A stretch of DNA of 64,000 bases from Halomonas sp. (GTDB taxonomy: Bacteria; Pseudomonadota; Gammaproteobacteria; Pseudomonadales; Halomonadaceae), in assembly GCF_017983445.1 (NCBI RefSeq), contig NZ_JAGOBJ010000004.1, positions 62,001-126,000 on the forward strand. The letters are read 5' to 3'. Every line of letters begins with the position of its first letter. Position 1 is the first letter of the stretch. The notes beneath the pieces are model-generated. The model saw nothing but the letters and a program-made list of their open reading frames with translations. It searched no databases and had not been told where the DNA came from. Shown here in pieces: positions 1,002 through 26,701 of this stretch. Position numbers and translations under genes: made by a program.

Positions 1002-1002
1002 T

Positions 1003-2049: not shown

Positions 2050-3444
2050 TTACTGGCTATCGTCTGCGTAAAACAGGTCGTCCTGTTTAAGGCGAAGCTC
2101 ATGTAAGCGAGAAGATGGTAGCGTGACATCGGCTAAAGTAATGGGTTGATTAGGCGCTATATCGCGAATAACTTCGGCGCCTGGTAACAGATAAAAAGGG
2201 ACGTTGGCCTCAGCTGAAAGCGCGGCGGCGGGATGAATCTCCGGCCGCAGTCCTTCGATATGCCGATGATGGCCTTTCATCTCAAGCCGCTGGCCCGCCT
2301 TGATTGCCTGAGTGGCGCGTGCCGTCAGGTCGAATTTAGGCGTGGTGGCATGGCCGCCACCAGACGTCAAGCCGTTGAGTACCACGTCCAGCAGCGAGAT
2401 GGGCGCTTCCAGACCCAGCAAATGGCGCGGTAGATAAACCATGGCGCTATTGCCGCTGCGGCTTAGTACGTGGCCCTTATCGCGCAGCAGTGTCCAGACA
2501 TGCGGGTCTTCGCAGCGCACCACAACAAACACGCCGCCGGCAAAGCTCAGCTCGTCAGGACGGCGCAGGCAGTTAAAGACTTCAAGACGCTCGTTACCTT
2601 CCAGAACACCGCCTTCTGCCTGGGTATCCAGAAGCGTCGGAACTTCTGTGGTTCGTAGCACCATGGCATGAAATTCGGGCAGGTCTGGCTGCAGGCCGGT
2701 TGCGTTGGCAACGTTGACCATCTCACAAAGGTCAGGCACTGAAATCTGCGGAATAGCGGATAGAACCTCGCCGCGGGATTTGACCGTGGCGCGCGCATCG
2801 CTATCGTCAAGCTTCCAGAGCGCAGCCATTTCGCTGGCATCATATTGAGTGCCGTTACAGGTCACGGTGCCTTGCGCTTCATCCCAGATGAAGTCGTATT
2901 CGCTGCTCTTGCCGGCTGAGATAATCTCAAATCCCAGGGTTCTGGCCCATGTGACAAGACCAATCAGCAGGCTTGGCTGGTCGCCGTCCAGCGGCGTGAA
3001 AAGACGCCCCTGGTCTTCGGCCAGACGAGTCAGGTAAGGCCCGACAACCGACTCCGTTTCCTTGGTGGCAATACCGACATGCTTGCCCGCCAGTAGGGCA
3101 GCTTCTGCATAACGGGCGCCGACGTCAGGGATACCGGTAGATTCAACCAGGATATCGAACGGGAGCGCAGAAACCGTATCAAAAGAAGCCGTGGCAATGA
3201 AAAAGCCTTTCTGCCAAGCATCTTCAGCATCGCTTGCAGAATGGCATACCATTATTTGTGCATCAGGAATACCCGCATGGCGTAAGGCTTCAGCCGCTTT
3301 TTCAGGATTGATATCAATCGCAATACGCGCCGACAATCCTGGCATCTGGCGGGCTTGGCGCAATACGCCACGACCAAAATCACCAGCGCCCGCAATACAG
3401 GCTTCAACTACCTTGGTCGTATCAAAGTGTTGTAAGTAATTCAT
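2050..3444 (-). CDS. Homoserine-dehydrogenase-like oxidoreductase with C-terminal SAF domain
   Basis: Predicted NAD(P)-dependent dehydrogenase of the COG4091 type, 464 residues. The N-terminal Rossmann fold shows GAGDFG near residue 20 and a VESTGIPDVGARYA stretch after the nucleotide-binding core. A conserved TPLDGDQPSLLIGL segment lies mid-protein, and an SAF-type domain follows at the C-terminus (LLPGAEVIRDIAPNQPITLADV). The reaction of this family is not settled; an oxidation of an acid sugar or hydroxy acid is inferred from the downstream tctCBA. A paralogue of similar length with the same neighbours is at 18329-19744. Divergent from a GntR regulator across 274 bp. Confidence 0.8.
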   Translation of the reverse strand: MNYLQHFDTTKVVEACIAGAGDFGRGVLRQARQMPGLSARIAIDINPEKAAEALRHAGIPDAQIMVCHSASDAEDAWQKGFFIATASFDTVSALPFDILVESTGIPDVGARYAEAALLAGKHVGIATKETESVVGPYLTRLAEDQGRLFTPLDGDQPSLLIGLVTWARTLGFEIISAGKSSEYDFIWDEAQGTVTCNGTQYDASEMAALWKLDDSDARATVKSRGEVLSAIPQISVPDLCEMVNVANATGLQPDLPEFHAMVLRTTEVPTLLDTQAEGGVLEGNERLEVFNCLRRPDELSFAGGVFVVVRCEDPHVWTLLRDKGHVLSRSGNSAMVYLPRHLLGLEAPISLLDVVLNGLTSGGGHATTPKFDLTARATQAIKAGQRLEMKGHHRHIEGLRPEIHPAAALSAEANVPFYLLPGAEVIRDIAPNQPITLADVTLPSSRLHELRLKQDDLFYADDSQ

Positions 3445-3696: not shown

Positions 3697-3726
3697 TTCT
3701 TGATGATCGCTAATCAAAGTGAATAA
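3691..3726 (+). CDS. Short upstream open frame overlapping the GntR start
   Basis: An 11-codon frame (MPFLMIANQSE) has a good ribosome site AAAGGAG at 3675-3681, 9 nt before its ATG, while the GntR frame has no visible ribosome site of its own. The short frame overlaps the GntR GTG start (3719) in a different phase and stops at 3726. It may be a leader that couples translation to the regulator; it could also be chance. Confidence 0.35.
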   Translation: MPFLMIANQSE

Positions 3727-4405
3727 TCTCATGGAAGATGTCGCTCCAACCCATAACGCCGGGCTTGTTGAAAAAGTCGCGCACTATTTGCGCGAACATA
3801 TCGTCATGGATCATTTTCAACCGGGCCAACGACTGCCCGAGCGTACGCTGGCAGTTGAGTTACAGGTCTCCCGCACTCCGCTACGCGAGGCGCTCAAGAT
3901 TCTCGCGACCGAAGGGTTAGTGGTGATTTCCCCTAACCGCGGGGCGGTGGTTGCAGATGTAAGTGCTGCGGATATGAAAGAGAAGGCCTATGTATTAAGT
4001 GTCCTTGAGCAGTCAGCTGCGGAGCTGACGTGTACCAGGGCCAGCGATGAAGATATTGCCGAGCTACAGGCGCTGCATTACGAAATGAAAGCGGCTTTTT
4101 TGAGAAGGGATCGACAGAACTACTTTCGGCTTAATCAAGATATCCACAACCGGATTGTGGCACTTTCGGGGAACGCTACCTTGATTGATATACACGCCAA
4201 CCTCAGTCGGCAGCTCTATCGGGTGCGCTATCTGTCCAATCAAAAGACCGATAAATGGGCGAAAGCCATGGAAGAACACGAGGCCATCATGGCGGCCCTG
4301 AACGCTCGTGATGCCGCACGCGTCGGCGATGAGCTGCGCAATCATCTGGGTAAAACGTGGATCAAATATGCGAATGGAAAGCCGGTCAGCGGCGAGACGT
4401 CATGA
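3719..4405 (+). CDS. GntR-family (FCD subfamily) transcriptional regulator
   Basis: DNA-binding regulator of 228 residues. The winged helix (about residues 15-80) shows the GntR signature: LREHIVMDHFQPGQRLPERTLA, then VSRTPLREALKILATEGLV, with the arginines typical of recognition. The remainder is an all-helical FCD ligand domain with metal-type residues (D and H in LNQDIHNRIV, and a C-terminal EEHEAIMAAL). The start is a GTG at 3719 or an ATG at 3731; neither has a clear ribosome site. It is divergent from the oxidoreductase-tctCBA operon and probably controls it in response to the imported acid or a catabolite. Confidence 0.9.
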   Translation: MNNLMEDVAPTHNAGLVEKVAHYLREHIVMDHFQPGQRLPERTLAVELQVSRTPLREALKILATEGLVVISPNRGAVVADVSAADMKEKAYVLSVLEQSAAELTCTRASDEDIAELQALHYEMKAAFLRRDRQNYFRLNQDIHNRIVALSGNATLIDIHANLSRQLYRVRYLSNQKTDKWAKAMEEHEAIMAALNARDAARVGDELRNHLGKTWIKYANGKPVSGETS

Positions 4406-7670: not shown

Positions 7671-8719
7671 GCCACGGCCTCCTGACTGTTCAACTCACTC
7701 AAGAGCTGTCGCCATTCAAGGCGTTCGGGGTTGCCCTCACGGCGCTGCGCATAGATCTGCAACACCAGCGAGCCTTCTGCATCAAACGCTTCCACGCTTG
7801 TCACGCCGCCATCGCGGTTGGGTTTGGTGACCTGCCACACCTGGTCAATGGCAGTATCGTCAAGGTGTAGGGTAAAGCGCTCGCCAAACAGATTCAGCCA
7901 GCCCCGTGCGCGCTGGGGCGTGGGCAACGTCCCCGTGCGGATTTGTACGCAGCCGGAGCTGGCGACAAACAGCATCAGCGGCAAGGCGTGTTGGCTTGCC
8001 TGATGAAGCAAGTTTTCCAGTATGTTAGCCGGCAGCGCCTGGGTGTAGTGGCCCTCCATCAGCTGGTTAGCCTCAATACGTTCCAGGCGATGGCGCTGCA
8101 GCAGAGCGAAAAACTGATGCACGTCCTGCATTGCCCCCCATTCGCTCGCAAGGTCGGGAGCATTGGGAAGCGGGCGTTTAAGGCGTGGTGCACTCTGGGT
8201 GAACGCTGGAGTGTCCTGGGTGCCGAGTGCTGCAAGCGCGCCCCAGGATCTGGGAAGCGGTGTTTCCAGCGCAAAACATTTGTGCACGGCGCAGCCATGC
8301 TGATTAAAAATTTGCAGGCTCCAGCGCCACTCCTTCGAGCCATCTTGTGAAGGCATGGTATCGCGAATCAAGCATACCCAGTGCCAGTGGGAATACAGCA
8401 GGCGAAGATCCAAACCGCCGGGGTCGAGCAGCAGACCCGTTTGGGCTCCGCCGCGCAGTTCAGGATAGTCCCCGGTTTGTTCAAGCACGGCCAGGCGCGA
8501 GCGGGTCAGCGATTTTATGCGGCCAAGCGTGGGCAGATAGCTTGCGATCTCGCTGGGTGGCAAGGGCAGTGTCCATACATCACGGCCCAGGCGAGCCGCC
8601 TGTAACTCGCCTTCGCTAATGGTCAGACGCTCGGCAATGTCGATGGCGGGCAGGCGCGGCTGGGCCGCCCGCGCAGCATCAAAGGCTTCCAGAATAGCGA
8701 TCTGTTGGGATTGAGTCAT
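7667..8719 (-). CDS. hmuS: Haem-degrading/haem-handling protein HmuS (ChuS/HemS family)
   Basis: Cytoplasmic haem utilisation protein of 350 residues, the usual length of the two-repeat ChuS/HemS family, which binds haem delivered by HmuTUV and in some members opens the ring. The start (FDAARAAQPRLPAIDIAERLTISEGELQAAR) matches the family N-terminus, and the duplicated half begins around residue 190 (ASEWGAMQDVHQFFALL). It follows the receptor gene by 31 bp and overlaps hmuT by 4 bp. Confidence 0.92.
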   Translation of the reverse strand: MTQSQQIAILEAFDAARAAQPRLPAIDIAERLTISEGELQAARLGRDVWTLPLPPSEIASYLPTLGRIKSLTRSRLAVLEQTGDYPELRGGAQTGLLLDPGGLDLRLLYSHWHWVCLIRDTMPSQDGSKEWRWSLQIFNQHGCAVHKCFALETPLPRSWGALAALGTQDTPAFTQSAPRLKRPLPNAPDLASEWGAMQDVHQFFALLQRHRLERIEANQLMEGHYTQALPANILENLLHQASQHALPLMLFVASSGCVQIRTGTLPTPQRARGWLNLFGERFTLHLDDTAIDQVWQVTKPNRDGGVTSVEAFDAEGSLVLQIYAQRREGNPERLEWRQLLSELNSQEAVA

Positions 8720-8750
8720 GGCGCACCTATATCGGGTTCACTGAATGGAT

Positions 8751-14028: not shown

Positions 14029-14940
14029 CTACGCTGAGTTATTGCTCAGCCCTTGTAATATCCTATCTGCAAAGCGCTTTGCGGCTGGCGACAGCACTTG
14101 ATTCCGCCGCATGATCAAGGCCATCGTTCTCTCAATAGGAGGGTCTACAAGATCTAAGACGGTAATTGGCTCGGCGCCGCTTAGCTTGTTTAACCGTGAA
14201 CCTGGTTGGATCGCGGCACCCAGGCCGGCTTCAACCATGGCAATAATCGTTTCGCCTTGAATGAACTGATACGGCGTTTCAATTGAGACGCCAAGGTCAT
14301 CCATCATCCGATCCAGCAGCCGTCGCATAGCAGTTTCGCGGCTTTGCACCAGTAGCGGCAGCTGCGAGAGCTGGCGCCAGGTGATGGACGTTGTAAACGG
14401 TGTTGCCATCGCCGTTGGCAGCAATGCTTTAACGGGATCTTTAAGAATAGGCGTGAACGTGAATTCTTCATTCTCCAGCATCGGACCTAGCGCAAAGTCG
14501 ACCTCGCGATGGTGCAATGCTTCATAAAGCTGGCTTGAAGTTAGCTCTCGAATGGTGACGTTGATCTGGGGGTAGTCGCGCACAAAGGCGGTTAGTATCG
14601 CGGGAAGATGAATCGATGCAATGTTAGATGAACTGGCGACGGACATGTGCCCCCGCTTGAAATCGGCAGTTTCTCTCAGCAGTCGCAGTCCCTGCTGCAT
14701 TTCATACACCGCGCGGGTGGCGCTCTCGAATAACTGCTTGCCCTCGGGTGTCAAAGTGACGCTGCGCGTAGTGCGTTCGAATAGCATCACGCCCAGCTGT
14801 TGCTCCAGGGTCTTTATTTGGTTGCTGATGGCGGAGTGCGAACGGTGCATACGCTCTGCCGCAACGCGAAAGCTACCTTCCGTCGCAACAAGGATGAAGG
14901 TTTGTAAAAACTTTAAATTAACGCTGCCATCAAATTCCAC
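14029..14940 (-). CDS. LysR-family regulator of the second TTT operon
   Basis: LysR regulator, 303 residues from the chosen GTG at 14940, which has GGAG 8 nt upstream. The HTH reads GSFRVAAERMHRSHSAISNQIKTLEQQLG, followed by LFERTTRSVTLTPEGKQL. The effector domain shows the usual DFALGPMLENEEF and VEAGLGAAIQPGSRL patterns. The open frame reaches 15045, but the extra residues are basic and not LysR-like. It is divergent from tctC and is the obvious local regulator of the catabolic operon. Confidence 0.88.
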   Translation of the reverse strand: MEFDGSVNLKFLQTFILVATEGSFRVAAERMHRSHSAISNQIKTLEQQLGVMLFERTTRSVTLTPEGKQLFESATRAVYEMQQGLRLLRETADFKRGHMSVASSSNIASIHLPAILTAFVRDYPQINVTIRELTSSQLYEALHHREVDFALGPMLENEEFTFTPILKDPVKALLPTAMATPFTTSITWRQLSQLPLLVQSRETAMRRLLDRMMDDLGVSIETPYQFIQGETIIAMVEAGLGAAIQPGSRLNKLSGAEPITVLDLVDPPIERTMALIMRRNQVLSPAAKRFADRILQGLSNNSA

Positions 14941-15168
14941 TCTTGACTCCGTATTGGTTCGTGAAAGTGCATAATCACCAGAAAAAATGCGCTTGTCTAT
15001 CCGATAGCGGCGGCCTAATGTTCGTTGCTTGGAGAACGCTGTCACAACGCTCTGAATTAAGTATCCCTGCGCTGGCTGTCTAGCAGAGCATTAAGTCATA
15101 CGTCATCGCACGCTATTGCTTGAAAAGGAACACTGAGGTTCAGAGCACCTGACGGAAATTTGCGGACA

Positions 15169-16158
15169 ATGAGAGTAAAAATAATGGTCCTGAAAACAAA
15201 GATAAATTGCCGGGCATTTGGCGCAGGCGCGATGGTATTGAGTGTTTTGTCACTGCTGCCGGTATCAGCACACGCTGAAGAATATCCTGGCCATAATATG
15301 ACCTACATTGTTGCTGCTGGCGTTGGTGGCGGTAGTGACATTCTGGCGCGCACGCTGACTCGCGTGATTGAACAAAAAGACCTGCTGCCGGTATCGATGG
15401 TTGTCGAAAACCGCCCCGGTGGGTCAGGCGCGATCGGCTATAACTATATCAATTCACGCCAGGGCGACGGCCACTTCCTTGCGGGCGTAGGTGTCAGCTT
15501 TTTTACCACGCCGCTGATGGGCAAGATGCGTTACAACTACGAAAGCTTTACGCCGGTTGCAGCGCTGGCTCGATCGCCCTACATCCTTGTTGTTTCGACC
15601 GATTCTGATATTGAAACGTTGGAAGACCTGAAGACGGCCTCTGGCGTGCGTGCGGGTTCGGTTGGCGCAGTTGCCGATGGCGCGCTGCTCTCTTACATGC
15701 TGAACCAGGCGCTGGACACGGAAATCCGTGTTGTCCCCTATGACGGCGGTGGTGAGGTTATTGCAGCCGTACTGGGCGGGCATCTTGAGCTGATGTGGGG
15801 CAATCCCAACGAAATGCTTGAGCAGGTTCGCGCTGGCAATATGAGGCCGCTAGCGGTATCTGCACCTGACAGAATTGCGCAGTTGCCTGACGTTCCGACT
15901 TTCGCGGAGCAGGGCTATGACATCACCCATACACAGTTGCGGGCCATCGTGATGCCCGGTGACGTCTCAGACGAGGCCGTCAGCTATTGGGAAGACCTGT
16001 TGCAGACCGTGGCTGAGAGCGACGAATGGCGCGAGGCCTACCTGGACCGCTTTAACGAGATCCCGCTATATCTTGACGGCGCCGATCTTGCCGAAGAAAT
16101 GGCCGCCACCTCTGACCGTTACGAGGCAATGATGAGAGAAGTGGGCGTGATCGACTGA
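15169..16158 (+). CDS. tctC: TctC/Bug-family periplasmic binding protein (second set)
   Basis: Periplasmic receptor for the second TTT importer, about 329 residues. It has a signal peptide with cleavage near AHA-EE, then YPGHNMTYIVAAGVGGGSD, the Bug-family start, and a VVENRPGGSGAIGYNYI stretch typical of the ligand site. Starts at 15169 and 15184 are both possible and neither has a strong ribosome site; 15184 would give a shorter n-region. Only distantly like the binding protein at 1003-1968, so the ligand may differ. Confidence 0.9.
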   Translation: MRVKIMVLKTKINCRAFGAGAMVLSVLSLLPVSAHAEEYPGHNMTYIVAAGVGGGSDILARTLTRVIEQKDLLPVSMVVENRPGGSGAIGYNYINSRQGDGHFLAGVGVSFFTTPLMGKMRYNYESFTPVAALARSPYILVVSTDSDIETLEDLKTASGVRAGSVGAVADGALLSYMLNQALDTEIRVVPYDGGGEVIAAVLGGHLELMWGNPNEMLEQVRAGNMRPLAVSAPDRIAQLPDVPTFAEQGYDITHTQLRAIVMPGDVSDEAVSYWEDLLQTVAESDEWREAYLDRFNEIPLYLDGADLAEEMAATSDRYEAMMREVGVID

Positions 16159-16167
16159 TTGCGTCCC

Positions 16168-16199
16168 GCCTGCCGCTGTGTCAATGCGCACCGGCAGGC
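16168..16199 (+). promoter_or_regulatory. Hairpin between tctC and tctB
   Basis: GCCTGCCG at 16168-16175 pairs with CGGCAGGC at 16192-16199 across a 16-nt loop, 10 nt after the tctC stop. There is no U tract. It is probably an mRNA-stabilising or partial attenuation structure favouring the binding protein over the permeases (inference). Confidence 0.5.
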
Positions 16200-16234
16200 A
16201 TCCCGTCATGGCGTGAATTTCAAGGAAAAATCAT

Positions 16235-16684
16235 ATGCTTCGATTGCACAGACTTGATCTGGCTGTTTCCGTCATCCTGTTCCTGTTGGGCCTCTACGTA
16301 GTGATAACGGGCTTCGACTATGGCTTTTTGGATCGCGGTACGCCGGATGCAGGCTTCTTTCCAGTATTTATCGGTTTCGGCATCAGTGGTTTTGCCACGA
16401 TCAATTTCTATAACGTGTTGCGCCGTGTATATACCGAGTCGGGCAACATCTCTGGCGAAGCGATTTTACGTGTTGCCTTTAGCAGCGCCGCCCTGATCGT
16501 CTTTGTCGTACTGGCATCCTTAATAGGCATGTTGGCTGCGGGTTTCCTGCTGATGATAGCGATTGCCATAATTTTTGGTGCGCGGACGCCAACGATGATC
16601 CTGCGGGCAGCAATCGCAGCGGCGATCATGTCAGGCGTGCTTTACCTGATCTTTTTCAGGTTCCTGGGTATCGTTCTGCCCTGA
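16235..16684 (+). CDS. tctB: TctB small permease subunit (second set)
   Basis: Small membrane subunit of 149 residues. The first helix (LDLAVSVILFLLGLYVVITG) is followed by GTPDAGFFPVFIGFGI, the typical TctB loop and second helix, then two more helices in the C-terminal half. AAGGA lies upstream of the ATG. It is followed after 21 bp by tctA. Confidence 0.9.
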   Translation: MLRLHRLDLAVSVILFLLGLYVVITGFDYGFLDRGTPDAGFFPVFIGFGISGFATINFYNVLRRVYTESGNISGEAILRVAFSSAALIVFVVLASLIGMLAAGFLLMIAIAIIFGARTPTMILRAAIAAAIMSGVLYLIFFRFLGIVLP

Positions 16685-16705
16685 TGCTCTTTCGGAGAAA
16701 TAACT

Positions 16706-18214
16706 ATGTTTGAAACCTGGGGGCTTCTTCTCGATGGGATCGCGATGGCCAGTTCGCCTGCGATTTTATTTGCCATCTTCTTCGGCGCCATTATTGGCCT
16801 ATTCATTGGCGCGCTGCCGGGCCTCGGGCCAACGGCGGGCGTCGCCATTCTTCTACCGCTAGTGGTCGGGTTCGACGGCACTGCCGCCATTGCGGCTTTA
16901 GGCGGCGTGTATTACGGCTCGCAGTATGGCGGTGCGGTGACTGCGATTTTGCTGGGCATCCCCGGCGACTCTGCTGCCACCATGACCGTCATTGATGGCC
17001 ACGCGCTTGCTAAGCGCGGTGAGGCTGGCGCAGCGCTGGGCATTTCGATTGCGGCATCGTTCATTGGCGGCATCGTCGGCCTGATTATGCTGACCTCGTT
17101 TGCGGTCACTATCGCAAAAGCAGCCATTGCGTTTGGTCCAGTCGAGATGACCGCTGTGATGATCTTTTCGCTATCGCTGGTGAGTGTGTTGGGCGGTAAG
17201 GATCCGGTTAAAGGCCTTCTGGCATTGTGTATGGGGCTGTGGCTTGGCACGGTCGGGCTTGATCCCATCGTTGGTATCCCGCGCTTTGATTTTGGGGAAG
17301 TCCATCTGATGGAAGGGTTGGAGTTTTCAATCCTCGCCGTGGGTCTTTTCGGTCTCGCTGAGATGTACAACACTCCGCTGGGCAGTGGCCACGGTCAAAA
17401 CGCGATTCGTTTCCGTATGCTCGATCTGCTGCCTAAACCTCGCAAGATCGTGCGTTGCTGGCGCGAGCTTGGTTTTGGTTCAATTATTGGCTTCTTCGTG
17501 GGTGTCTTACCTGGCGCGGGAGCCACGGCCGCGACGATGATTGCCTATGCAACGTCCAAGCGCCTTTCACGTACGCCAGAAGTGTTTGGTAAAGGCGCCT
17601 ATGAAGGCGTAGCGGCACCTGAATCTGCAAATAACGCCGCGTCCTATGGTTCGATGATTCCCATGTTTGCGCTTGGTATTCCAGGATCGGGCACCACCGC
17701 GGTGCTGCTAGGAGGACTACTGATGATCGGCCTTCAGCCGGGGCCGCTATTGTTTGAGACTCAGCCGGATTTCGTTTGGACAATCTTCGGCAGCTTCTAC
17801 ATCGGTAATCTGGTGCTCGTGGCGATCACTATCGTGCTGACGCCGCTTTTGGCCAGCTGTGCCTTTGTGAAGCCCGGCTATTTGTTCCCCGCGGTCATTG
17901 CCATCGTTGCCTTCGGTATCTATTCAATTAATTACTCAATGTTCGATGTGATCTTGGCAATGATCTTTGGTGTGGTGGGATATGTGATGGTCAAGCTGGA
18001 ATATCCGCCGGTGCCACTCATCCTGGGACTCATCCTTGGGCCCATCTTAGAGCGCGGCATCCGACGCACCTTAGTGGGCACGGATGGTGACGTGCTGGTC
18101 TTCTTTCAAAGCCCCATCGCTCTTGTGTTGCTTCTTGCCAGTGCGTTGATGTTGTTCTGGCCGCTGATCCAGAAGCTACGCCGCGGTCCTCAAAACAGTC
18201 TCGGCACTAGCTAA
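16706..18214 (+). CDS. tctA: TctA large permease subunit (second set)
   Basis: Full-length TctA of 502 residues with about 11-12 hydrophobic segments. The duplicated glycine/proline motifs are both visible: GLFIGALPGLGPTAGVAILLPL near the N-terminus and GFFVGVLPGAGATAATMIAY in the second half, with ESANNAASYGSMIPMFALGIPGS following. It works with TctB and TctC to import a carboxylate. The ligand is not evident; the genes that follow suggest an acid sugar. Confidence 0.95.
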   Translation: MFETWGLLLDGIAMASSPAILFAIFFGAIIGLFIGALPGLGPTAGVAILLPLVVGFDGTAAIAALGGVYYGSQYGGAVTAILLGIPGDSAATMTVIDGHALAKRGEAGAALGISIAASFIGGIVGLIMLTSFAVTIAKAAIAFGPVEMTAVMIFSLSLVSVLGGKDPVKGLLALCMGLWLGTVGLDPIVGIPRFDFGEVHLMEGLEFSILAVGLFGLAEMYNTPLGSGHGQNAIRFRMLDLLPKPRKIVRCWRELGFGSIIGFFVGVLPGAGATAATMIAYATSKRLSRTPEVFGKGAYEGVAAPESANNAASYGSMIPMFALGIPGSGTTAVLLGGLLMIGLQPGPLLFETQPDFVWTIFGSFYIGNLVLVAITIVLTPLLASCAFVKPGYLFPAVIAIVAFGIYSINYSMFDVILAMIFGVVGYVMVKLEYPPVPLILGLILGPILERGIRRTLVGTDGDVLVFFQSPIALVLLLASALMLFWPLIQKLRRGPQNSLGTS

Positions 18215-18257
18215 CTAGAAGGTCGTTCCGGCCTTCGAAAACCACTTGACCCTTCTC

Positions 18258-18279
18258 CGGGCGGCCCAGCCGCCGCCCG
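18258..18279 (+). promoter_or_regulatory. GC-rich hairpin between tctA and the oxidoreductase gene
   Basis: CGGGCGGC at 18258-18265 pairs with GCCGCCCG at 18272-18279 across a 6-nt loop in the 114-bp gap after tctA. It has no following U tract, so it is more likely an mRNA-processing or partial-attenuation element than a full terminator. Confidence 0.45.
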
Positions 18280-18328
18280 ATCACCCCCCTGTGTCTGACG
18301 CGCGGGGCCTTCTAAAGGATTTAACGCT

Positions 18329-19744
18329 ATGGTTTACCATTATCTTTATGACCGCTTTGCCAAGATAGACACAGTTCGCGTTGGTATCATTGGCGCCGGC
18401 AATTACGGTACAGCGATCGTTACTCAGGCGCCGCACACCCCTCGTTTGTCCGTTGTACTGGTCGCTGATCTGTCTCTGGAAAGCGCCCGTGGCGCATATG
18501 AAAAGGCCGGCTACGCTGCCGACACGCTAAGCTATGCGGCCTCGGCCGAAGAAGCACAGTCGCTGATTGACCAAGGCCTGCGGGTCTACACCGATAAGCC
18601 TGAAATCGTGGCGTATGTGCCCGCAGTTGATATTGTCGCTGAAAGCACCGGCGTCCCCGAGGCGAGCGCTCGGTTCTCCTTGGATGCCTTTGCCAACGGT
18701 AAGCACGTTGCGATGATCACCAAGGATTGTGATGTTTCCGTTGGGCCGATCCTGAAACGCAAGGCTAAAGAAGCCGGCGTCGTTTACACCCCTGTGGACG
18801 GCGACCAGCACGGCCTGCTGATTGGGTTCTATGAATGGGCCAAAACGATCGGCCTCACGGTGATATCGGGCGGCAAGGCGACGGATGGCGAGTTCATCTA
18901 CGACCCCGACGCTTCCACCGTGACCATTAAAACCGATAAAAAAATCCACGCACCCTATCAAGAAACCGTCAGCGTCGCGCCAGAAGACCGCAAGTATCTT
19001 GAGCCAATTCCTGTTGGCAAAGTGCAAGAGTATGTTGAGGCCCGCGCCCGCATCCTTGCTGGCCTGCCGCAACCCGGTGCCTACGACTTATGTGAAACCG
19101 CCGTAGCGGCAAACTATACCGGTCTCGCACCGCAAGTGGATACGCTGTACCACGCCCCTCTGCGCATTACCGAAATTCCCGAAGCCTATGCTGAAACAGC
19201 CACAGGAGGGCTGTTTGAAAACCCCGGCGCCATTGATTTGGCTACCTGTCTACGGTTGCCTAATGAATCAGGCCTGGGGGGAGGCGTTTGGCTAGTGGTA
19301 CGCGCCGATAGCGCCTATTCGCAGCACATTTTGGCGACCAAGGGGCAGATCGCGAACCACGACGAATCCACTGTCGTCATTTATCGCCCCTATCATCTGT
19401 GTGGGGTGGAAACGTCGACCTCGTTACTAATGGCAGGCCTTCTGGGGATTGATACCGGTTCGGATGATTACCGCCCACGCTTTGATCTGATCAAGGTAGC
19501 CGCGCGTGATATCCAGGCCGGCGAAGTGTTTGGCAACGACCATGACCCGATGATGACTGCGCGAATTGTTCCCGCTCAGCCTATTGCGGCAGGTAATTTG
19601 GCAACGGCGCATCTGCTGACCGGCAACCGTGCGGCAGTCGATATTCCTGCCGGCACCGCCATCACCTATGACATGGTCACTGAGCCAGCTGATTCCGTTA
19701 TTTGGCCGCTGCGCCGCGAGCAGGACGCCGTGTTTCTGGGCTAA
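18329..19744 (+). CDS. Homoserine-dehydrogenase-like oxidoreductase with SAF domain (second copy)
   Basis: COG4091-type protein of 471 residues, paralogous to that at 2050-3444. The N-terminal nucleotide site is GIIGAGNYGTAIV; AESTGVPEASARFSLDAFANGKHV and YTPVDGDQHGLLIGFYEWAK follow, matching the first copy in order. The C-terminus is the SAF-type region (ATAHLLTGNRAAVDIPAGTAITYDMV). AAAGGA lies 9 nt before the ATG. Family activity is not firmly known; in this operon it is the only candidate NAD(P) dehydrogenase, so it may make the 3-oxo acid that the DUF1537 kinase would phosphorylate (inference). Confidence 0.82.
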   Translation: MVYHYLYDRFAKIDTVRVGIIGAGNYGTAIVTQAPHTPRLSVVLVADLSLESARGAYEKAGYAADTLSYAASAEEAQSLIDQGLRVYTDKPEIVAYVPAVDIVAESTGVPEASARFSLDAFANGKHVAMITKDCDVSVGPILKRKAKEAGVVYTPVDGDQHGLLIGFYEWAKTIGLTVISGGKATDGEFIYDPDASTVTIKTDKKIHAPYQETVSVAPEDRKYLEPIPVGKVQEYVEARARILAGLPQPGAYDLCETAVAANYTGLAPQVDTLYHAPLRITEIPEAYAETATGGLFENPGAIDLATCLRLPNESGLGGGVWLVVRADSAYSQHILATKGQIANHDESTVVIYRPYHLCGVETSTSLLMAGLLGIDTGSDDYRPRFDLIKVAARDIQAGEVFGNDHDPMMTARIVPAQPIAAGNLATAHLLTGNRAAVDIPAGTAITYDMVTEPADSVIWPLRREQDAVFLG

Positions 19745-19795
19745 GGACTAGCCGGGCGGGACATCTCCTGGCCGGCATCAATAAAGGATATCGCC

Positions 19796-20458
19796 ATGAC
19801 TGCGCCACGCATCGTGCTGTTACACGCTACCACCGTTGCTATGGGCCCTATTCACCGCGCTATGCATGACATGTGGCCTGAAGCCGAGTCGGTGAACCTG
19901 CTGGACGATGCACTGAGCATTGATCGTGCACAGGAGGGCGAGACCCTGTCAGATCCGTTGATCGCGCGGTTTGAAGCACTTGGCCGCTATGCCGCTGGGC
20001 CGATGCGTGCAGCGGGCATCCTTGCCACTTGTTCAGCGTTTGGCTCGGCGCTCAATGTATTGGCCGCTAATCTAGCGATTCCCGTCGTTAAGCCGAATGA
20101 GCCGATGTTTGAGGCGGCTATTGCTGCTGGGCCACGTATCGCCATGCTGGCCACTTTTGCCCCCGCTGTCGCCAGCATGGAAGTTGAATTTAAGGCGTTG
20201 GCCCCTGATGGGGATCTAACCTCGATTGTCGTGCCTGGCGCCATTGAGGCGTTACGGCGCGGGGACGCTGCAACGCATAACCGGCTGATCGCTGAAACTG
20301 CTACCCATTTGCGCGGATACGATGCGGTGATGCTGGCGCATTTTTCAACCTCGCGCGCGCTTGCGGATGTTCAGGTGGTTACGGACTTACCGGTATTCTC
20401 GGCGCCCGAGTCGGCCGTTAACCGCATTAGATCGCTTGTCGAGCAACGCTGCGTTTAG
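19796..20458 (+). CDS. Asp/Glu racemase-fold protein with one catalytic Cys
   Basis: Protein of 220 residues in the Asp/Glu/hydantoin racemase superfamily. The first catalytic Cys is present (GILATCSAFG, near residue 80). The second Cys motif, normally GCT, reads MLAHFSTS near residue 183, so the second Cys is replaced by His or lost. One-Cys members such as arylmalonate decarboxylase are known, so a racemase is unlikely; an isomerase or decarboxylase is possible. It occupies the place where otn-type operons carry the hydroxypyruvate-isomerase-like OtnI. AAAGGA precedes the ATG. Confidence 0.75.
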   Translation: MTAPRIVLLHATTVAMGPIHRAMHDMWPEAESVNLLDDALSIDRAQEGETLSDPLIARFEALGRYAAGPMRAAGILATCSAFGSALNVLAANLAIPVVKPNEPMFEAAIAAGPRIAMLATFAPAVASMEVEFKALAPDGDLTSIVVPGAIEALRRGDAATHNRLIAETATHLRGYDAVMLAHFSTSRALADVQVVTDLPVFSAPESAVNRIRSLVEQRCV

Positions 20459-20540
20459 CGACTTTTGACTACTCACCGCTGGCGGTAAATATCTTAAGCG
20501 CGGATGCCGTGCTTTACGCCCTGAATGAAGGAAACATGCC

Positions 20541-21812
20541 ATGACAGTGCTTGGCTGTATCGCTGATGATTTCACCGGAGCCACTGACCTTGCGGGTCTT
20601 CTCGCCCGATCAGGCGTTCGAGTTCGGCTGCATACCGGGCTACCGGAAGCCCTACCACAAGGTGAAACGGTTGCCTTCGAAGTGATCGCTTTAAAGATTC
20701 GCACGGCACCCGTGGACGAGGCCGTGGCTCAGGCTCGCGTGGCGCTGGACTGGCTCCGGAAGGCCGGTGCGGAGCGGTTCTTCTGGAAATATTGTTCGAC
20801 CTTCGATAGTACTTCGGAGGGTAATATCGGCCCCGTGGCAGAGGCGTTGATGGCCGATCTTGGTGCCGGGGCGACAATCCATTGCCCGGCCTTTCCCGAA
20901 AACGGGCGACGAGTGTTCATGGGGAATCTATTCGTTCATCGCCAGCCCATTTCCGAAAGCCCTATGAAAGACCATCCGCTGACCCCGGTGCGTGACAGCG
21001 ACGTTACACGGCTTTTGTCGCGCCAAGTGCGTGGCGCTGTGGCACTTGCAGATCATGGCGAAGTAGCGGCAGGTGCGACGTGGTTGCGTCAACGCATCAA
21101 TACGCTGTCGGCCGCGGGTGCCGCGCATATTGTGGTTGATGCTATTAATGACGATGACCTTAGCAATATAGCCAAAGCCTGCCGTGATATGCCGCTAATC
21201 TGTGGGGGATCTGCGGTGGCCATGACGCTGCCTCAACTTTATGTGAGTGATGGAACGCTTTCGGCGGATGCGCTTCATGCCGCGCATCCTTCGCTAGCGC
21301 CTGGCGCCATTGTGCTGTCGGGAAGCGCTTCAGCTGCAACTAATGCTCAGGTCAGCCGTTACTTAGCGCGCGGTGTGCCTTCTCTACGACTCGATCCACT
21401 GGATTTGGCTGCAAACGGCCATGGTGCAGCGCTGGATTGGATTGATGAGCAGGACCTGTCGTGCGGGCCGCTAATTTATGCAACGGCGCAACCTGAGAGC
21501 GTACGTATTGCACAGGAAAAGCTGGGTGCCGCCCGTGCCGGTGCATTAGTGGAGGCCGCGCTTGCTGCGCTTGCCGTTCGTGCCCGTGATCTTGGTGCCC
21601 AACGTATCGTGGTGGCAGGCGGAGAAACGTCTGGCGCCGTGACGCAGGCCCTTGGTGTGAAGCAAATGGATATCGGCCCTGAAATTGCCCCCGGCGTGCC
21701 GTGGTGCTTCTGCGTTTCGGCGGGGCAGCAGATTGCGCTGACCTTGAAGTCAGGAAACTTTGGCGCTGAGACATTCTTCTCCGACGCGCTTGAACAGCTG
21801 GGTGCATCATGA
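20541..21812 (+). CDS. otnK: Four-carbon acid sugar kinase family protein (DUF1537; OtnK/DtnK/OiaK type)
   Basis: Kinase of 423 residues. The N-terminal substrate domain begins with the hallmark CIADDFTGATDLAGLLARSGV, and CPAFPENGRRVFMGNLFV follows near residue 115. The C-terminal nucleotide domain carries GGETSGAVTQALG. Family members phosphorylate 3-oxo-tetronate, D-threonate, L-erythronate or 3-oxo-isoapionate; which of these applies cannot be decided here. AAGGA precedes the ATG, and the stop overlaps the next start by 4 bp (ATGA), so the kinase and aldolase are coupled. The symbol is the family default, not a proof of substrate. Confidence 0.88.
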   Translation: MTVLGCIADDFTGATDLAGLLARSGVRVRLHTGLPEALPQGETVAFEVIALKIRTAPVDEAVAQARVALDWLRKAGAERFFWKYCSTFDSTSEGNIGPVAEALMADLGAGATIHCPAFPENGRRVFMGNLFVHRQPISESPMKDHPLTPVRDSDVTRLLSRQVRGAVALADHGEVAAGATWLRQRINTLSAAGAAHIVVDAINDDDLSNIAKACRDMPLICGGSAVAMTLPQLYVSDGTLSADALHAAHPSLAPGAIVLSGSASAATNAQVSRYLARGVPSLRLDPLDLAANGHGAALDWIDEQDLSCGPLIYATAQPESVRIAQEKLGAARAGALVEAALAALAVRARDLGAQRIVVAGGETSGAVTQALGVKQMDIGPEIAPGVPWCFCVSAGQQIALTLKSGNFGAETFFSDALEQLGAS

Positions 21813-22456
21813 GTGAAGAAACTAAACTGCGTGAACGCATTTGCTTGCTAGCAAAATCGCTGTTTGACCGCGGCCTGACCGGCGGCTCGACGGGGAATAT
21901 TTCGGCCCGCACGCCGGATGGTGGCTTGCTGGTAAGCCCGACAGGCACCAGTTTTGGCAGGCTTGATCCTGGCCGCTTAAGCCGATTTGACCCCACGGGA
22001 CGTCTGATCGAGGGTGACCCGCCCACAAAGGAAATGCCGCTGCATACGGCCTTTTACGACACGAGGTCGCAAACCGGGGCTGTGGTTCATCTGCATTCGT
22101 GCCATTCAGTCGCGCTCTCTATGTTACCCGAGGCCGATCCTGAGAATTTCCTACCGCCATTAACGCCTTATGGAATCATGCGATTAGGCAAGGTGCAGCT
22201 GTTGCCCTATTTCATGCCCGGTGATCCGGCTATGGGCGAGGCGGTACGAGGCCTTGCCGGACGGCGGTCGGCGGTAATGCTTGCTAACCACGGCCCGGTC
22301 GTGGCCGGCACTAATATTGAAGCGGCATGCAACGCAATTGAAGAGCTGGAAGATACTGCGCGCCTTGCGATTTTGACACGGGGTATGTCCCCTAAAATGC
22401 TGTCGAATGCGCAGGTGCAGGCCATTGTCACCAAGTTTCGCCCAGATTGGGACTGA
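21809..22456 (+). CDS. otnC: Class II aldolase/adducin-type sugar-acid phosphate decarboxylase (OtnC-like)
   Basis: Protein of 215 residues of the class II aldolase family. It has the N-terminal GLTGGSTGNISARTPDGGLLVSPTG, the acid/base Glu in PTKEMPLH, the metal His pair in VVHLHSCHSVAL and the third His in ANHGPV. Directly coupled to the DUF1537 kinase, which in known pathways supplies a 3-oxo-acid 4-phosphate that OtnC decarboxylates to dihydroxyacetone phosphate. That reaction is established for the family; here it is inferred. Confidence 0.88.
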   Translation: MSEETKLRERICLLAKSLFDRGLTGGSTGNISARTPDGGLLVSPTGTSFGRLDPGRLSRFDPTGRLIEGDPPTKEMPLHTAFYDTRSQTGAVVHLHSCHSVALSMLPEADPENFLPPLTPYGIMRLGKVQLLPYFMPGDPAMGEAVRGLAGRRSAVMLANHGPVVAGTNIEAACNAIEELEDTARLAILTRGMSPKMLSNAQVQAIVTKFRPDWD

Positions 22457-22467
22457 CAGGAAAAATA

Positions 22468-23610
22468 ATGAATAACAATATATTAGCAGTCACTGTGCTT
22501 GCTTTAGGGCTTAGCACCACGCCGTTGAATGCCGATGAGAAAACCTTCGTTTATATCTCAAATGCTGGAGATGGCACGATCACAGGGTTTCAGCTAGGTG
22601 ATGACGGTAATCTTGAGTCTGCTGGCACGACTGAGGTCGCGGCGCTAGTGATGCCGATGGCTGCCAGCCCGGACGGCAAGGTCCTTTATGCTGCGACGAG
22701 GGCCGAGCCATTCACACTTTATGCGTGGCATGTTTCGCCTCAGGATGGATCGCTTGACCTGCTGGACACCGCCCCGCTTGGACACAATATGCTTTATGTT
22801 TCCACTGATCGCAGTGGGCAATACCTCCTGGCCGCCTCTAATAGTAGCAATGTGATCACGGTCACCGCTCTGGATGAAGAAGGGCGCCCGGCATCTGAAC
22901 CGCTGTTCACTCAGCCAACACGCCACTACACCCACGCTATTCGCACCAACCATCTGAACACATTGGCCTTTGCGCCAACCTTGGGTGAAAACGCCGTCGA
23001 GCAATTCCGTTTCGACGTTGAGGCAGGGGCATTAAGTCACAACGAGCCTCAGCTGGCTGCGATTGGAGAGGGCGCGGGCCCACGCCATTTTGTTTATTCG
23101 CCCGACGACCGGCATTTGTATGTAGTGAATCAATTCATGGGCAGTGTCGCAGGCTTCGTGATTGATCAGACCAGTGGAACGTTAGCGCCGCTCGGTATAT
23201 TTGATGCATAACCTGGCACCTCGCTGCATCCTGGCAGTGAACGTCCGCCGGTATCCAGCAATGGCCCCGCCAAGCCTGACCCTAATGCAATCTGGGCCGC
23301 TGATATTGAGATAACCCCCGATGGCAGGCTGCTGTATGTGACTGAACGAACGACCAGCCAGATCATTGGGTTTCGCCGCAATGGCGAAAGCGGTGAGCTT
23401 ACCTACTTAGGTGCCACGGCAACCGAAAATCAACCGCGCGATTTTGCCATTGACCCATTGGGACAATTCTTGATCGTGGCGGGTGAAAAGTCGGGCCATG
23501 CCACCGTGTACAGTATTGATGCCGAAAGCGGCGAGCTAATCTCTGTTGACAGGGCCGCGACCGGTACGGATTCGGCGTGGGTTGAAATTTTGACAGTTAT
23601 AGATGATTAA
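22468..23610 (+). pseudogene. Secreted lactonase (6-phosphogluconolactonase-like beta-propeller) with an in-frame stop
   Basis: From the ATG at 22468 (AGGA upstream) the product has a signal peptide ending near NADEK and beta-propeller repeats of the lactonase family (FVYISNAGDGTITGFQL, MAASPDGKVLYAA, GPRHFVYSPDDRHLYVVNQ). A single TAA at 23209-23211 stops it after about 247 residues. The same phase then continues without another stop for 133 codons with clear lactonase sequence (DIEITPDGRLLYVTERTTSQ, DFAIDPLGQFLIVAGEKSG), ending at 23610. Thus one nonsense change, or a sequencing error, breaks a gene of 381 codons. If intact it would open a sugar lactone in the periplasm before uptake by TctCBA. 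Confidence 0.85.
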
Positions 23611-23831: not shown

Positions 23832-24593
23832 TTAGAACACTGCGCGGACAGCAAGATACAGAACTGAAGGGGCAAGCAGCGCACCGAGGCCAGTGTAGAA
23901 CGTGGCCGTCATGGCACCATAAGGCACCAGTTTCGAGTCGGTGGCAGCAAGGCCTGCGGCAACTCCGCTGGTGGTGCCCATCAAACCGCCGAAAATCATT
24001 GCTGAACGTGGGTTATCCAGGCCGATATGGCGGGCGGCGATGGGGGTTAGAATCATCACCAGAATCGATTTGAACAGGCCGGCGGCAATGGAAAGGGCAA
24101 TGATCTCGGAAGAGGCACCAATCGAAGCACCCGCGATGGGGCCGACAATATAGGTTACGGTACCGGCGCCAATCGTGGTCAGTGAAACCGGGTCGCGATA
24201 ACCGAACGCGTAAGCTACCGCAACGCCTGCAACGAACGATACGAGGACACCCAGAAACAGGGCGATAATACCGCTGAGACCCGCCTCGCGAACTTCTTGA
24301 AAACGCACTCCGTAGGCCGTGGCAATAATCGCTAAGTCTCGTAACATGCCGCCGCCCATTAAGCCTAGCCCGGCAAACAGGCTGATATCGGCAAGCCCCC
24401 GCGTACCGCCCGTATGGATACCTCCAAAATAGGCCAAGCCTAGCCCCACTATAATCGCAATGGCCGAGCCGTGAATGCGCCCGTTGGTCAGTTTGTCGCT
24501 GATCAGGTAGGAGAAATACATGGCGCCACCCACTAAGGCAAACGCCGCGATCAAGTGCTGTTTCTCAAGCTGAGTGACTAAAGATTCAATCAT
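23832..24593 (-). CDS. madM: Malonate transporter subunit MadM
   Basis: Large membrane subunit of the MadLM malonate:Na+ symporter, 253 residues (usual length about 254), with many hydrophobic segments and the family stretches KQHLIAAFALVGGAMYFSY, GLGLMGGGMLRDLAIIATAYG and GTVTYIVGPIAGASIGASSE. GGAGG lies 8 nt before the ATG; the gene follows madL by 15 bp. Pieces of the same gene survive at 13666-13815. Confidence 0.92.
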   Translation of the reverse strand: MIESLVTQLEKQHLIAAFALVGGAMYFSYLISDKLTNGRIHGSAIAIIVGLGLAYFGGIHTGGTRGLADISLFAGLGLMGGGMLRDLAIIATAYGVRFQEVREAGLSGIIALFLGVLVSFVAGVAVAYAFGYRDPVSLTTIGAGTVTYIVGPIAGASIGASSEIIALSIAAGLFKSILVMILTPIAARHIGLDNPRSAMIFGGLMGTTSGVAAGLAATDSKLVPYGAMTATFYTGLGALLAPSVLYLAVRAVF

Positions 24594-24608
24594 AATAGTG
24601 ACCTCCAG

Positions 24609-25067
24609 TTAGCGGGCATGACGCGCACGAGCGCGAGCATGAGACGGTGAGGAGGCACTTAACACTTTACGCGGATTGTGTGCCGGAGTGCTTTCCTGGG
24701 TGTCGGAAGTCTTGGGCCGGCCAAGTTTGTTGAGAAAGGGAACTAACGCAAAACTTGCGATAACCGCAACCAGGCTTGCGAGTAGCGCAATCAGGCCGCC
24801 ATCAAACGCGGCGGCGACATTTTGGCTGGCGGCCATTGCGACCACAATCGGAATGTACATGCCGTTCCAGAACTTGATGCCGTCTTCCGTGCTGGCGGGC
24901 ATCTTCTTTTTGTCCATAAGATAGCCGCCCAAGAAGATCAGCATCAGCATGGCAATGCCGACACCCCCTACGTTCGAATTTACGCCGAGCAGCATGCCCA
25001 GCACATCACCAGCCCACAGGCCAACCAACATACACCCTGCCAGAAGGGCAACACCGTAAATCACCAT
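24609..25067 (-). CDS. madL: Malonate transporter subunit MadL
   Basis: Small membrane subunit of MadLM, 152 residues. Four hydrophobic segments (GVALLAGCMLVGLWAG, NVGGVGIAMLMLIFLGGYLMD, FWNGMYIPIVVAMAASQNV and LIALLASLVAVIASFALVPF) are followed by an unusually basic, disordered tail of about 35 residues rich in Ser, Arg and His (ending ARARARHAR). AGGAA precedes the ATG. The tail is longer than I would expect for MadL and may be lineage-specific. Confidence 0.9.
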   Translation of the reverse strand: MVIYGVALLAGCMLVGLWAGDVLGMLLGVNSNVGGVGIAMLMLIFLGGYLMDKKKMPASTEDGIKFWNGMYIPIVVAMAASQNVAAAFDGGLIALLASLVAVIASFALVPFLNKLGRPKTSDTQESTPAHNPRKVLSASSPSHARARARHAR

Positions 25068-25159
25068 GGCACAATTCCTGTTTTATCGTTGTTGTGAAGA
25101 GCACATTTTATGGCCGCAGTCGGGGCTTGGCCCGATCCCCTGCGGCGCGGGAAGTATGA

Positions 25160-26701
25160 TCAAGCGTCAGCAGGCGCATGCTCCGAAGCGAACGTATCCG
25201 TATAGGTGGTGCGCAGCTGATTCTTCTGGATCTTGCCCATCACGTTACGCGGCAACGACTCGGTAAAGAAGACACGCTTAGGCTGTTTGTAACGGGCTAC
25301 CTGATCCTTGAGGGCTGCGAGTATCTGCGCTTCGCTAATCGCGTCTGAAGCGTTGGGCACGACTACCGCCACGACCCCTTCACCAAGATCACCATGCGGC
25401 ACGCCAATGACGGCCGATTCCACCACCCCAGGTAAGTCATCTATCAACTGCTCGACTTCTTTCGGGTAGACGTTGTAGCCACCAGAGATCACCAGGTCTT
25501 TGTCGCGGCCCACAATATTCAGGTAGCCGTGCTCGTCAATAAGCCCCAGGTCGCCGGTGATAAAGAAGCCGTCATCACGAAACTCGGCCTGGGTTTTTTC
25601 CGGCATACGCCAATAACCCTGGAAAATATTCGGGCCGCGTAGCTCAACCATGCCGGTTTCGCCCTGAGAGAGCGCCTTGCCGCTTTCACGGTCAGCGATA
25701 CGCACTTCCACACCGGGAAGCGGCATGCCTACGGTGCCTGGGCGGCGCTTGCCGTCGTAGGGGTTGGAGGTGTTCATATTGGTTTCGGTCATGCCGTAAC
25801 GCTCAAGAATGGCATGGCCGGTGCGCTCTTCAAACGCTTCGTGGGTTTCGGCAAGCAGCGGCGCCGAGCCTGAAATAAACAGGCGCATATTGGTAACCAC
25901 GTCGCGGTTCAAACGCTCGGAGGCGAGCAGGCGGGTGTAGAAGGTCGGCACGCCCATCAGTACGGTGGCATGGGGCATGAGATCCAGCAATTCATCGACA
26001 TCCAGCTTGGGCAGAAACGTCATCGAAGCGCCGTTGATCAGCGTGATGTTGCACGCCACGAACAGGCCGTGGGTATGGAAAATCGGCAGTGCGTGGATCA
26101 GGTGATCCTGCTCGGTATACTGCCACGCTTCGCTAAGCGACTGGCTATTGGAGGCCAGGTTCTTATGGCTGAGCATGGCGCCCTTGGAGCGTCCGGTGGT
26201 GCCGGAGGTATAAAGAATCGCCGCCAGATCGTCACCCGCTACTTCGCATACCTGTTCGGTTTCCGGCGCATTGGCGACTTTTTCCATCAGGCTGCCGTCG
26301 GCCTTGGTGCCCAGGCTTTCTACATGGGCAACGCCACTGGTGCTGGCGCGTTCTTGAGCTTCTTTGAGTACCGCCGGGCGGCACACGTAAAGCTGTGGTT
26401 GCGCATCTTCCAGGAAGTAGGCAATTTCGCTATCGGTATAGGCCGTATTAAGCGGCAGATACACTGCGCCAACCTGTAGGCAGGCAAGATACAGCATGAC
26501 GATTTCAGGACTTTTATCGACCTGGACGGCGACTCGGTCGCCCGGTGAAACGCCCAGTTCCAAAAGGACGCTGGCCATTTTTCGGCTGGTCGTAATGACA
26601 TCGCCATACCGGTAGCGCTTACCGTCCAGCGTATCCATCAGTACCTTGTTGGGCTGACACTCAAAGTGTGGGTAAAACTGCAGGTAGAGGTTGTGGTTCA
26701 T
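25160..26701 (-). CDS. matB: Malonyl-CoA synthetase MatB
   Basis: AMP-forming ligase of 513 residues that activates malonate to malonyl-CoA. ANL motifs are present in order: LYTSGTTGRSKGAMLSH, the ERYGMTETN adenylate motif with the Met-Asn-Thr that follows in MatB proteins, GFFITGDLG, GRDKDLVISGGYNVYP and the C-terminal lysine in PRNVMGKIQKNQ. It lies 34 bp after the malonyl-CoA decarboxylase gene, so the product is decarboxylated to acetyl-CoA. Confidence 0.94.
   Translation of the reverse strand: MNHNLYLQFYPHFECQPNKVLMDTLDGKRYRYGDVITTSRKMASVLLELGVSPGDRVAVQVDKSPEIVMLYLACLQVGAVYLPLNTAYTDSEIAYFLEDAQPQLYVCRPAVLKEAQERASTSGVAHVESLGTKADGSLMEKVANAPETEQVCEVAGDDLAAILYTSGTTGRSKGAMLSHKNLASNSQSLSEAWQYTEQDHLIHALPIFHTHGLFVACNITLINGASMTFLPKLDVDELLDLMPHATVLMGVPTFYTRLLASERLNRDVVTNMRLFISGSAPLLAETHEAFEERTGHAILERYGMTETNMNTSNPYDGKRRPGTVGMPLPGVEVRIADRESGKALSQGETGMVELRGPNIFQGYWRMPEKTQAEFRDDGFFITGDLGLIDEHGYLNIVGRDKDLVISGGYNVYPKEVEQLIDDLPGVVESAVIGVPHGDLGEGVVAVVVPNASDAISEAQILAALKDQVARYKQPKRVFFTESLPRNVMGKIQKNQLRTTYTDTFASEHAPADA

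Follow-up and report, generated by a model that had tools for sequence, protein, structure and literature searches.

A DRL-family oxidoreductase and a racemase-fold protein in an otn-type operon of Halomonas

Gene content of operon A

The window analysed here is a stretch of 64,000 nucleotides from a Halomonas sp. genome (contig NZ_JAGOBJ010000004.1, positions 62,001 to 126,000). It contains operon A, in which a tetronate kinase (OtnK) and a decarboxylase (OtnC) stand beside a DRL-family oxidoreductase (DRL1) and an Asp/Glu-racemase-fold protein (Rac). The L-threonate/D-erythronate pathway is LtnD/DenD-OtnI-OtnK-OtnC (Zhang 2016, as described in PMC12540250 and PMC10580937). Operon A has OtnK and OtnC, both over the family cut-offs, and the expected product dihydroxyacetone phosphate in common with the pathway as outlined there, but it is without LtnD, DenD and OtnI and has DRL1 and Rac instead. 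The initial annotation had also placed other proteins in the dehydrogenase and isomerase slots of an otn-type pathway, and the arrangement recurs in other genomes.

From TctC to the lactonase the genes lie on a single strand with intergenic gaps of -4 to 114 bases, OtnC overlapping OtnK by 4 bases (the table also lists part of a second set, cluster B, described below). Gene calls, Pfam and NCBIfam find every gene of the initial annotation from LysR to lactonase (14029-23610), and Pfam identifies all three components of a tripartite tricarboxylate transporter (TTT).

Table. Genes of operon A and the part of cluster B that lies in the window
Feature	Position	Strand	Basis
LysR-type regulator, divergent from operon A	14029..14952	-	PF00126, PF03466
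TctC, periplasmic solute-binding protein of TTT	15169..16158	+	PF03401, E 2.7e-32
TctB, small membrane subunit of TTT	16235..16684	+	PF07331, E 3.3e-11
TctA, large membrane subunit of TTT	16706..18214	+	PF01970, E 3.8e-142
DRL1, DRL/DXR-II-family oxidoreductase with SAF domain; proposed tetronate dehydrogenase	18329..19744	+	Pfam DRL_cat (PF21135) and SAF
Rac, Asp/Glu-racemase-fold protein with one conserved Cys (Cys79); proposed oxo-tetronate isomerase/epimerase	19796..20458	+	
OtnK, 3-oxo-tetronate 4-kinase (DUF1537)	20541..21812	+	NF043035, 523 bits (cut-off 350)
OtnC, class II aldolase-type decarboxylase	21809..22456	+	NF043034, 292 bits (cut-off 250); PF00596
Beta-propeller lactonase gene, interrupted	22468..23610	+	halves match PF10282 separately
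TctB2 (cluster B)	412-987	-	by eye, from sequence and order
TctC2 (cluster B)	1003-1974	-	by eye, from sequence and order
DRL2, second DRL-family protein, 33-35% to DRL1 (cluster B)	2050..3444	-	PF21135; DRL2 clade in tree
GntR-type regulator, divergent from DRL2	3719..4405	+	by eye; GntR annotated beside DRL2 in L061 and L066

Because OtnK and OtnC pass curated cut-offs, the terminal pathway is well placed and would run from 3-oxo-tetronate through the 4-phosphate to dihydroxyacetone phosphate and CO2. A DUF1537 kinase with an aldolase-type decarboxylase is also found in the D-apionate oia/apn pathways. The operon A kinase, however, scores 97.7 bits on the 3-oxo-isoapionate kinase (OiaK) model, far below its cut-off of 700, and membership of these pathways is rejected. 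Of the otn/oia-like pathway originally described, the otn part holds.

The dehydrogenase slot had been assigned to a COG4091/SAF protein. Pfam confirms the SAF domain, but the other match is to DRL_cat, and no homoserine dehydrogenase model matches DRL1 in Pfam or NCBIfam at E 0.001; identity as a homoserine dehydrogenase is therefore rejected. In public annotation, members of the DRL1 and DRL2 branches go under the names homoserine dehydrogenase, SAF protein or FlgA. The relationship to the DRL/DXR-II family, which had been overlooked, is supported by both fold and domain: DRL1 has the whole fold of the Brucella reductoisomerase (3upl, 3upy) and its conserved residues E256, H356 and E361. The family is known mainly for making isoprenoid precursors, whereas DRL1 sits in a sugar-acid operon.

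The ligand anchors of Brucella DXR-II are given as K191, K193 and T229 in the family study (PMC3847144). They correspond to K183, T185 and D253 in DRL1 and mostly to K, S and D in DRL2, changes that would fit an unphosphorylated substrate. A Priestia protein (L065), taken as a likely true DXR-II member, has K, K and T. DRL1 and DRL2 have the conserved polar residues K183, R239, D253, E256, R309, K338, H356 and E361 in common, and Asp47, an NAD-type residue, is present in 21 of 21 DRL1 and 22 of 22 DRL2 proteins. In the DRL tree, a quick search with long-branch warnings, the Brucella chain groups with the 21 other DRL rows (99, starred), and a branch marked 100 (starred) has the 21 DRL1 rows to one side. 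As the anchors K193 and T229 are replaced and DRL1 and DRL2 fall outside the branch of the Brucella chain, identity as a true DXR-II reductoisomerase is rejected. The 2013 study left the DXR-II-like oxidoreductases DLO1 and DLO2 without a function and reported Leu/Ile/Val and Pro/Ser/Ala at position 229 in its groups (PMC3847144). The equivalent residue of DRL1 is Asp, so DRL1 is assignable to neither group as defined there and may be a branch outside the published DLO1/DLO2 sample.

Rac has the fold, and the first Cys position, of the Asp/Glu racemase superfamily, which includes glutamate, aspartate and hydantoin racemases, arylmalonate decarboxylase and maleate isomerase. Its nearest folds are racemases; maleate isomerase and arylmalonate decarboxylase follow at lower Z, a ranking still compatible with either. 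Unlike the superfamily, Rac is without the second Cys and stands in an OtnK context. Cys79 is kept in 37 of 37 Rac proteins (at least 45% identity), the other Cys, Cys219, lies outside the conserved columns and no Cys occupies the second racemase site. The earlier description of a one-Cys racemase-fold protein was thus right in substance. Racemase-fold relatives of Rac are currently annotated as racemase or arylsulfatase. In distant relatives (L190, L198-L201) Cys79 is replaced by Gly (6 of 62 rows), and this branch may have other chemistry.

The lactonase gene, whose product was first described as periplasmic, has an in-frame TAA at 23209-23211 that divides it in two; past this codon the frame is open to 23607. 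Its halves align to positions 11-231 and 243-342 of the PF10282 profile, and its N-terminus appears signal-peptide-like by eye. The gene is probably a pseudogene or carries a sequencing error. Lactonases of this type occur in three of 21 DRL1 loci, the window's own among them. With the gene interrupted here and rare elsewhere, the suggested opening of a lactone outside the cell before import is weakened.

DRL-led sets in this and other genomes

We collected 21 DRL1 loci: 18 from a scan of named genomes (66-86%; Paracoccus, Ancylobacter, Roseomonas, Devosia, Rhizobium and others), two from plasmids, and the window; a third plasmid match (H1) was left out. Loci extend 8.5-9.5 kb on each side or to the contig end. 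Scripted gene calls are the longest open frames ending in a stop, which misses genes cut by the end of a locus, and neighbourhood counts use hidden Markov models built from our own seeds with score limits of our choosing. The initial annotation had proposed a search for its gene neighbourhood in other genomes, and DRL1-Rac-OtnK-OtnC sets do recur. Within 9 kb, OtnK is found in 16 of the 21 loci, OtnC in 14, Rac (at least 150 bits) in 17 and OtnI in none. Weak Rac-type genes (30-35%) take the same place in L009, L012 and L022, so that a Rac-type gene adjoins DRL1 in 20 of 21 loci, which argues that the pairing is not due to chance; the exception, L014, ends at a contig end. A LysR homologue (50-74%) adjoins DRL1 in L005, L010, L012, L014, L015 and L016. 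The transporters vary, with TctA in eight loci (though separate from the set in L019), CitMHS in ten and ABC-type genes, recognised by eye, in L011, L016 and L017.

DRL1 is rare: among 58 relatives the window's genome is the sole carrier, and the best match in 385 genomes of another class is 37%. Since the nearest kin is from Paracoccus (86%), operon A was probably acquired.

Two DRL1-Rac-OtnK-OtnC genomes, G808 (locus L013) and G812 (L021), have no OtnI match above 96 bits and no LtnD or DenD over cut-off. The sole over-cut-off OtnK of G808 sits in the DRL1 set; G812 has two OtnKs. In these genomes the kinase would most obviously be supplied by DRL1 and Rac.

DRL2 leads a second set, cluster B, which is absent from the initial annotation. 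Pfam finds no SAF match in DRL2. The order is DRL2-TctC2-TctB2-TctA2-OtnK2-OtnC2, the last three genes lying outside the window (L004:6928-10371) and being 41, 47 and 59% identical to their operon A counterparts. Head to head with cluster B is a canonical operon with LtnD (433.6 bits, cut-off 350), OtnI (400, cut-off 325) and DenD (433.4, cut-off 325), together with genes for a TRAP importer, for an aldehyde dehydrogenase and for a further 3-hydroxyisobutyrate-dehydrogenase-type protein that passes none of the cut-offs (the two sets cover window 412-4405, L004:411-10371 and L023:578-2295). LtnD and DenD are both present in this neighbouring operon and absent around operon A. The full canonical tetronate set lies about 15-25 kb upstream of operon A on the same contig, so that some 35 kb of this genome accommodates the canonical pathway as well as both DRL-led sets.

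OtnK and OtnC accompany DRL2 in 15 of 22 loci, 10 of which belong to the window's genus. Neither OtnI nor Rac lies within 9 kb in any of the 22, and LtnD is present in one (L193). In the 13 loci of other DRLs, OtnK is absent. Two congeners, G024 (L226) and G036 (L220), carry a DRL2-OtnK-OtnC set without OtnI, LtnD or DenD nearby. Genome-wide, OtnI has no match in G024 and a best match of at most 98 bits in G036 (cut-off 325); the best LtnD matches are 180 and 194 bits (cut-off 350) and the best DenD matches 47 and 61 (cut-off 325). Each of the two genomes has one OtnK over cut-off, adjoining DRL2. Other arrangements of DRL2 are also found. A conjugative IncF plasmid of Klebsiella pneumoniae from cattle faeces (pRHB39-C10_3, L063) carries OtnK-aldolase-DeoR-GntP symporter-DRL2 (38%). 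DRL2 stands with PdxA and no OtnK beside TTT genes on a Rhizobium bangladeshense plasmid (L061) and beside TRAP importer genes in L193, which is maybe a further variant.

Rac also occurs without DRL1. Of 26 loci with Rac (at least 45%) and OtnK, 15 were drawn from the DRL1 set, itself found by DRL1 similarity; in six loci an alpha-hydroxyacid oxidase replaces DRL1 and in three an IPMDH-type enzyme does so. OtnI is absent from 24 of the 26. On a Pantoea agglomerans plasmid (L057) an IPMDH-Rac-amidohydrolase set adjoins the aconitase AcnA, a solute-binding-protein-like protein and a lactonase, which may hint at polycarboxylates.

Of 398 genomes sampled across the phylum, 81 have an OtnK over cut-off, with scoring confined to the best few candidates in each. 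We compared 96 OtnK loci, made up of 94 over cut-off among the matches listed and the two of this genome. OtnI occurs alone in 68, Rac alone in three, both in three and neither in 22, Rac here including weak relatives in L074 and L152. Where LtnD or DenD is present, OtnI is too in 61 of 65 loci; where an IPMDH-type or DRL protein stands without LtnD/DenD, OtnI is found in none of 10 (seven with IPMDH, plus L095, L102 and the window's locus). The difference has a Fisher p of 1.2e-9, for loci that are related. The remaining 21 loci have neither kind of front enzyme.

In a tree of 132 OtnKs, again a quick search with long-branch warnings, the Rac-associated kinases need nine changes, and the OtnKs of the window and Paracoccus fall in a starred set of nine rows, seven of them OtnI-associated. 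OtnKs of most other DRL1 loci are just 41-50% identical to that of the window. As the window OtnK nests among OtnI-associated OtnKs, these kinases probably share a substrate. OtnI and Rac sets thus seem to have exchanged kinases, an argument for a single shared intermediate.

Two further groups of genes lie near the DRL sets. Directly past operon A, on the opposite strand (23832-26701), are genes that look by eye like malonate utilisation (MadM/MadL-like membrane proteins and an acyl-CoA ligase), and in L054 a Rac relative (39%) is found near malonyl-CoA decarboxylase and synthase. A cluster at 5015-10730, flanked by the DRL sets, resembles by eye one for haem uptake, with an ABC transporter, a haem-degrading-like protein and a TonB receptor.

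A proposed route and its alternatives

We propose, with moderate confidence, that operon A imports and degrades a tetronate. The acid imported by the TTT would be a small hydroxylated one, with a tetronate the likeliest, and DRL1 would oxidise it to an oxo-tetronate, likely with NAD+. Rac, acting through Cys79 and a 2,3-enediolate, would make the isomer accepted by the kinase; the order of oxidation followed by isomerisation, given in the initial annotation, is possible. OtnK would then phosphorylate 3-oxo-tetronate at C4 and OtnC decarboxylate the product, the overall output being dihydroxyacetone phosphate and CO2. In cluster B, DRL2 would perform a related oxidation, perhaps of another stereoisomer, and deliver the kinase substrate without an isomerase. 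We infer each reaction, substrate and cofactor; the family memberships, conserved gene sets, kinase swapping and, in some genomes, the lack of OtnI, LtnD and DenD over cut-off are observed by computation.

Two reactions can be envisaged for Rac. The slightly favoured one is the OtnI reaction, a shift of the keto group from 2-oxo to 3-oxo acid, to which the alpha-hydroxyacid oxidase context, the single Cys and the lack of OtnI in 24 of 26 loci point. The other is epimerisation of the 3-oxo acid at C2, from the form that the kinase does not take to the one that it does, suggested by the isomerase-free DRL2 and IPMDH sets and by two loci with both Rac and OtnI.

For DRL2, the product is most simply 3-oxo-tetronate itself. 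A three-step bypass with 2-OtnK and an F_bP_aldolase-type 2-OtnC (Guo 2024, as described in PMC12540250) is, like operon A, without OtnI. Against the bypass as outlined in that source, OtnC is here of the Aldolase_II type, which is why we prefer this product; the OtnK of operon A differs too, as it passes the 3-oxo-tetronate cut-off.

A more specific and clearly more tentative proposal is that DRL1 and DRL2 are sugar-acid oxidoreductases of which at least DRL2 does the work of LtnD and OtnI in one step, possibly by oxidoisomerisation of the carbon skeleton, and that the one-Cys racemase-fold branch is a keto-isomerase of OtnK/OtnC modules beside three unrelated oxidising enzymes.

Several observations weigh against the proposed tetronate route. 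Five DRL1 loci have no neighbouring OtnK (L009, L014, L016, L019 and L022); OtnK occurs elsewhere in all five genomes (seven genomes tested, seven positive). OtnI passes the cut-off in 12 of 18 DRL1 genomes and four more have OtnI-like matches of 231-302 bits (cut-off 325), so that OtnI could act in trans where it is held elsewhere; in the window's genome the only OtnI match (G000:C14:51554-52324) lies outside operon A. G808 has an LtnD-like protein of 310 bits (cut-off 350). Of 10 tested congeners with DRL2, eight have OtnI elsewhere in the genome, and the isomerase-free argument for DRL2 therefore rests on G024 and G036. OtnI and a close Rac (57%) occur together in L149 and L053, weaker racemase-fold genes co-occur with OtnI in L074 and L152, and at the end of L047 the count of 26 loci missed a truncated hydroxypyruvate-isomerase-type protein (203 bits; 189 on the OtnI model; both sub-cut-off). 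Rac as a simple and exclusive replacement of OtnI is weakened by L149 and L053, which have both, and by the OtnI/Hyi-like protein at the edge of L047. As the DRL2 and IPMDH sets are without an isomerase, Rac may do something other than isomerisation. In the Fisher test, loci that are related are scored as if independent, and the window is one of the 10 compared. Asp47 is also found in 14 of 21 other DRLs, one of them with DXR-II anchors.

The alternative that survives best, although we think it doubtful, is that DRL1 and DRL2 both oxidise C3 to give 3-oxo-tetronate directly, Rac being strictly an epimerase, of the 3-oxo acid at C2 or of the substrate, that opens a stereoisomer which OtnK/OtnC reject. 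DRL2 sets without an isomerase nearby, in G024 and G036 without any over cut-off, agree with this, as do the conserved polar residues common to DRL1 and DRL2 and the racemases as nearest folds of Rac. The alpha-hydroxyacid oxidase family is expected to produce a 2-oxo acid. Such an enzyme accompanies Rac in six OtnK loci, where a 2-oxo product would need a keto shift, and Rac keeps just one of the two racemase Cys.

It is unlikely that the DRLs are oxidoisomerases acting like DXR in reverse, which would oxidise a branched C4 acid such as 2-(hydroxymethyl)glycerate and shift its carbon to reach 3-oxo-tetronate in one step. Apionate breakdown offers a precedent, with an oxidoisomerase that supplies a DUF1537 kinase, and DRL2 sets do without the isomerase. 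The branch of the family characterised so far has reductoisomerase activity (PMC3847144). Against this reading, none of the four DLO representatives tested complemented DXR (PMC3847144). Moreover, two of three DXR-II anchors are altered, DRL1 and DRL2 lie outside the branch containing the Brucella chain and Rac still accompanies DRL1. We give just as little weight to a C5 aldarate (pentarate) substrate, oxidised at C3 by DRL1 and decarboxylated by Rac as arylmalonate decarboxylase does, so that 3-oxo-tetronate enters OtnK/OtnC. The Cys of Rac is in the opposite half-site to that of arylmalonate decarboxylase (Cys188/Gly74 in PDB titles), Rac also accompanies other front enzymes, and TTT carriers are not limited to polycarboxylates. 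Action of the SAF protein on homoserine-like amino acids, with the kinase beside it by coincidence, would agree with the public names 'homoserine dehydrogenase' or 'FlgA' of its relatives but is scarcely credible, as no homoserine dehydrogenase family of Pfam or NCBIfam matches and OtnK adjoins 16 of 21 DRL1 and 15 of 22 DRL2 genes.

Meaning for the families involved

The terminal steps of the proposed tetronate route, OtnK and OtnC, are already known; the front half, DRL1 with Rac, is without a description in the literature searched. That search, which covered few subscription papers, found no paper joining a SAF/DRL or racemase-fold protein to a tetronate kinase pathway. The proposal gives two branches of the DXR-II family, and racemase-fold proteins, a concrete activity that can be tested. 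It also suggests 3-oxo-tetronate as a hub on which front enzymes of at least five types converge, namely LtnD, DenD, DRL, IPMDH-type and alpha-hydroxyacid oxidase.

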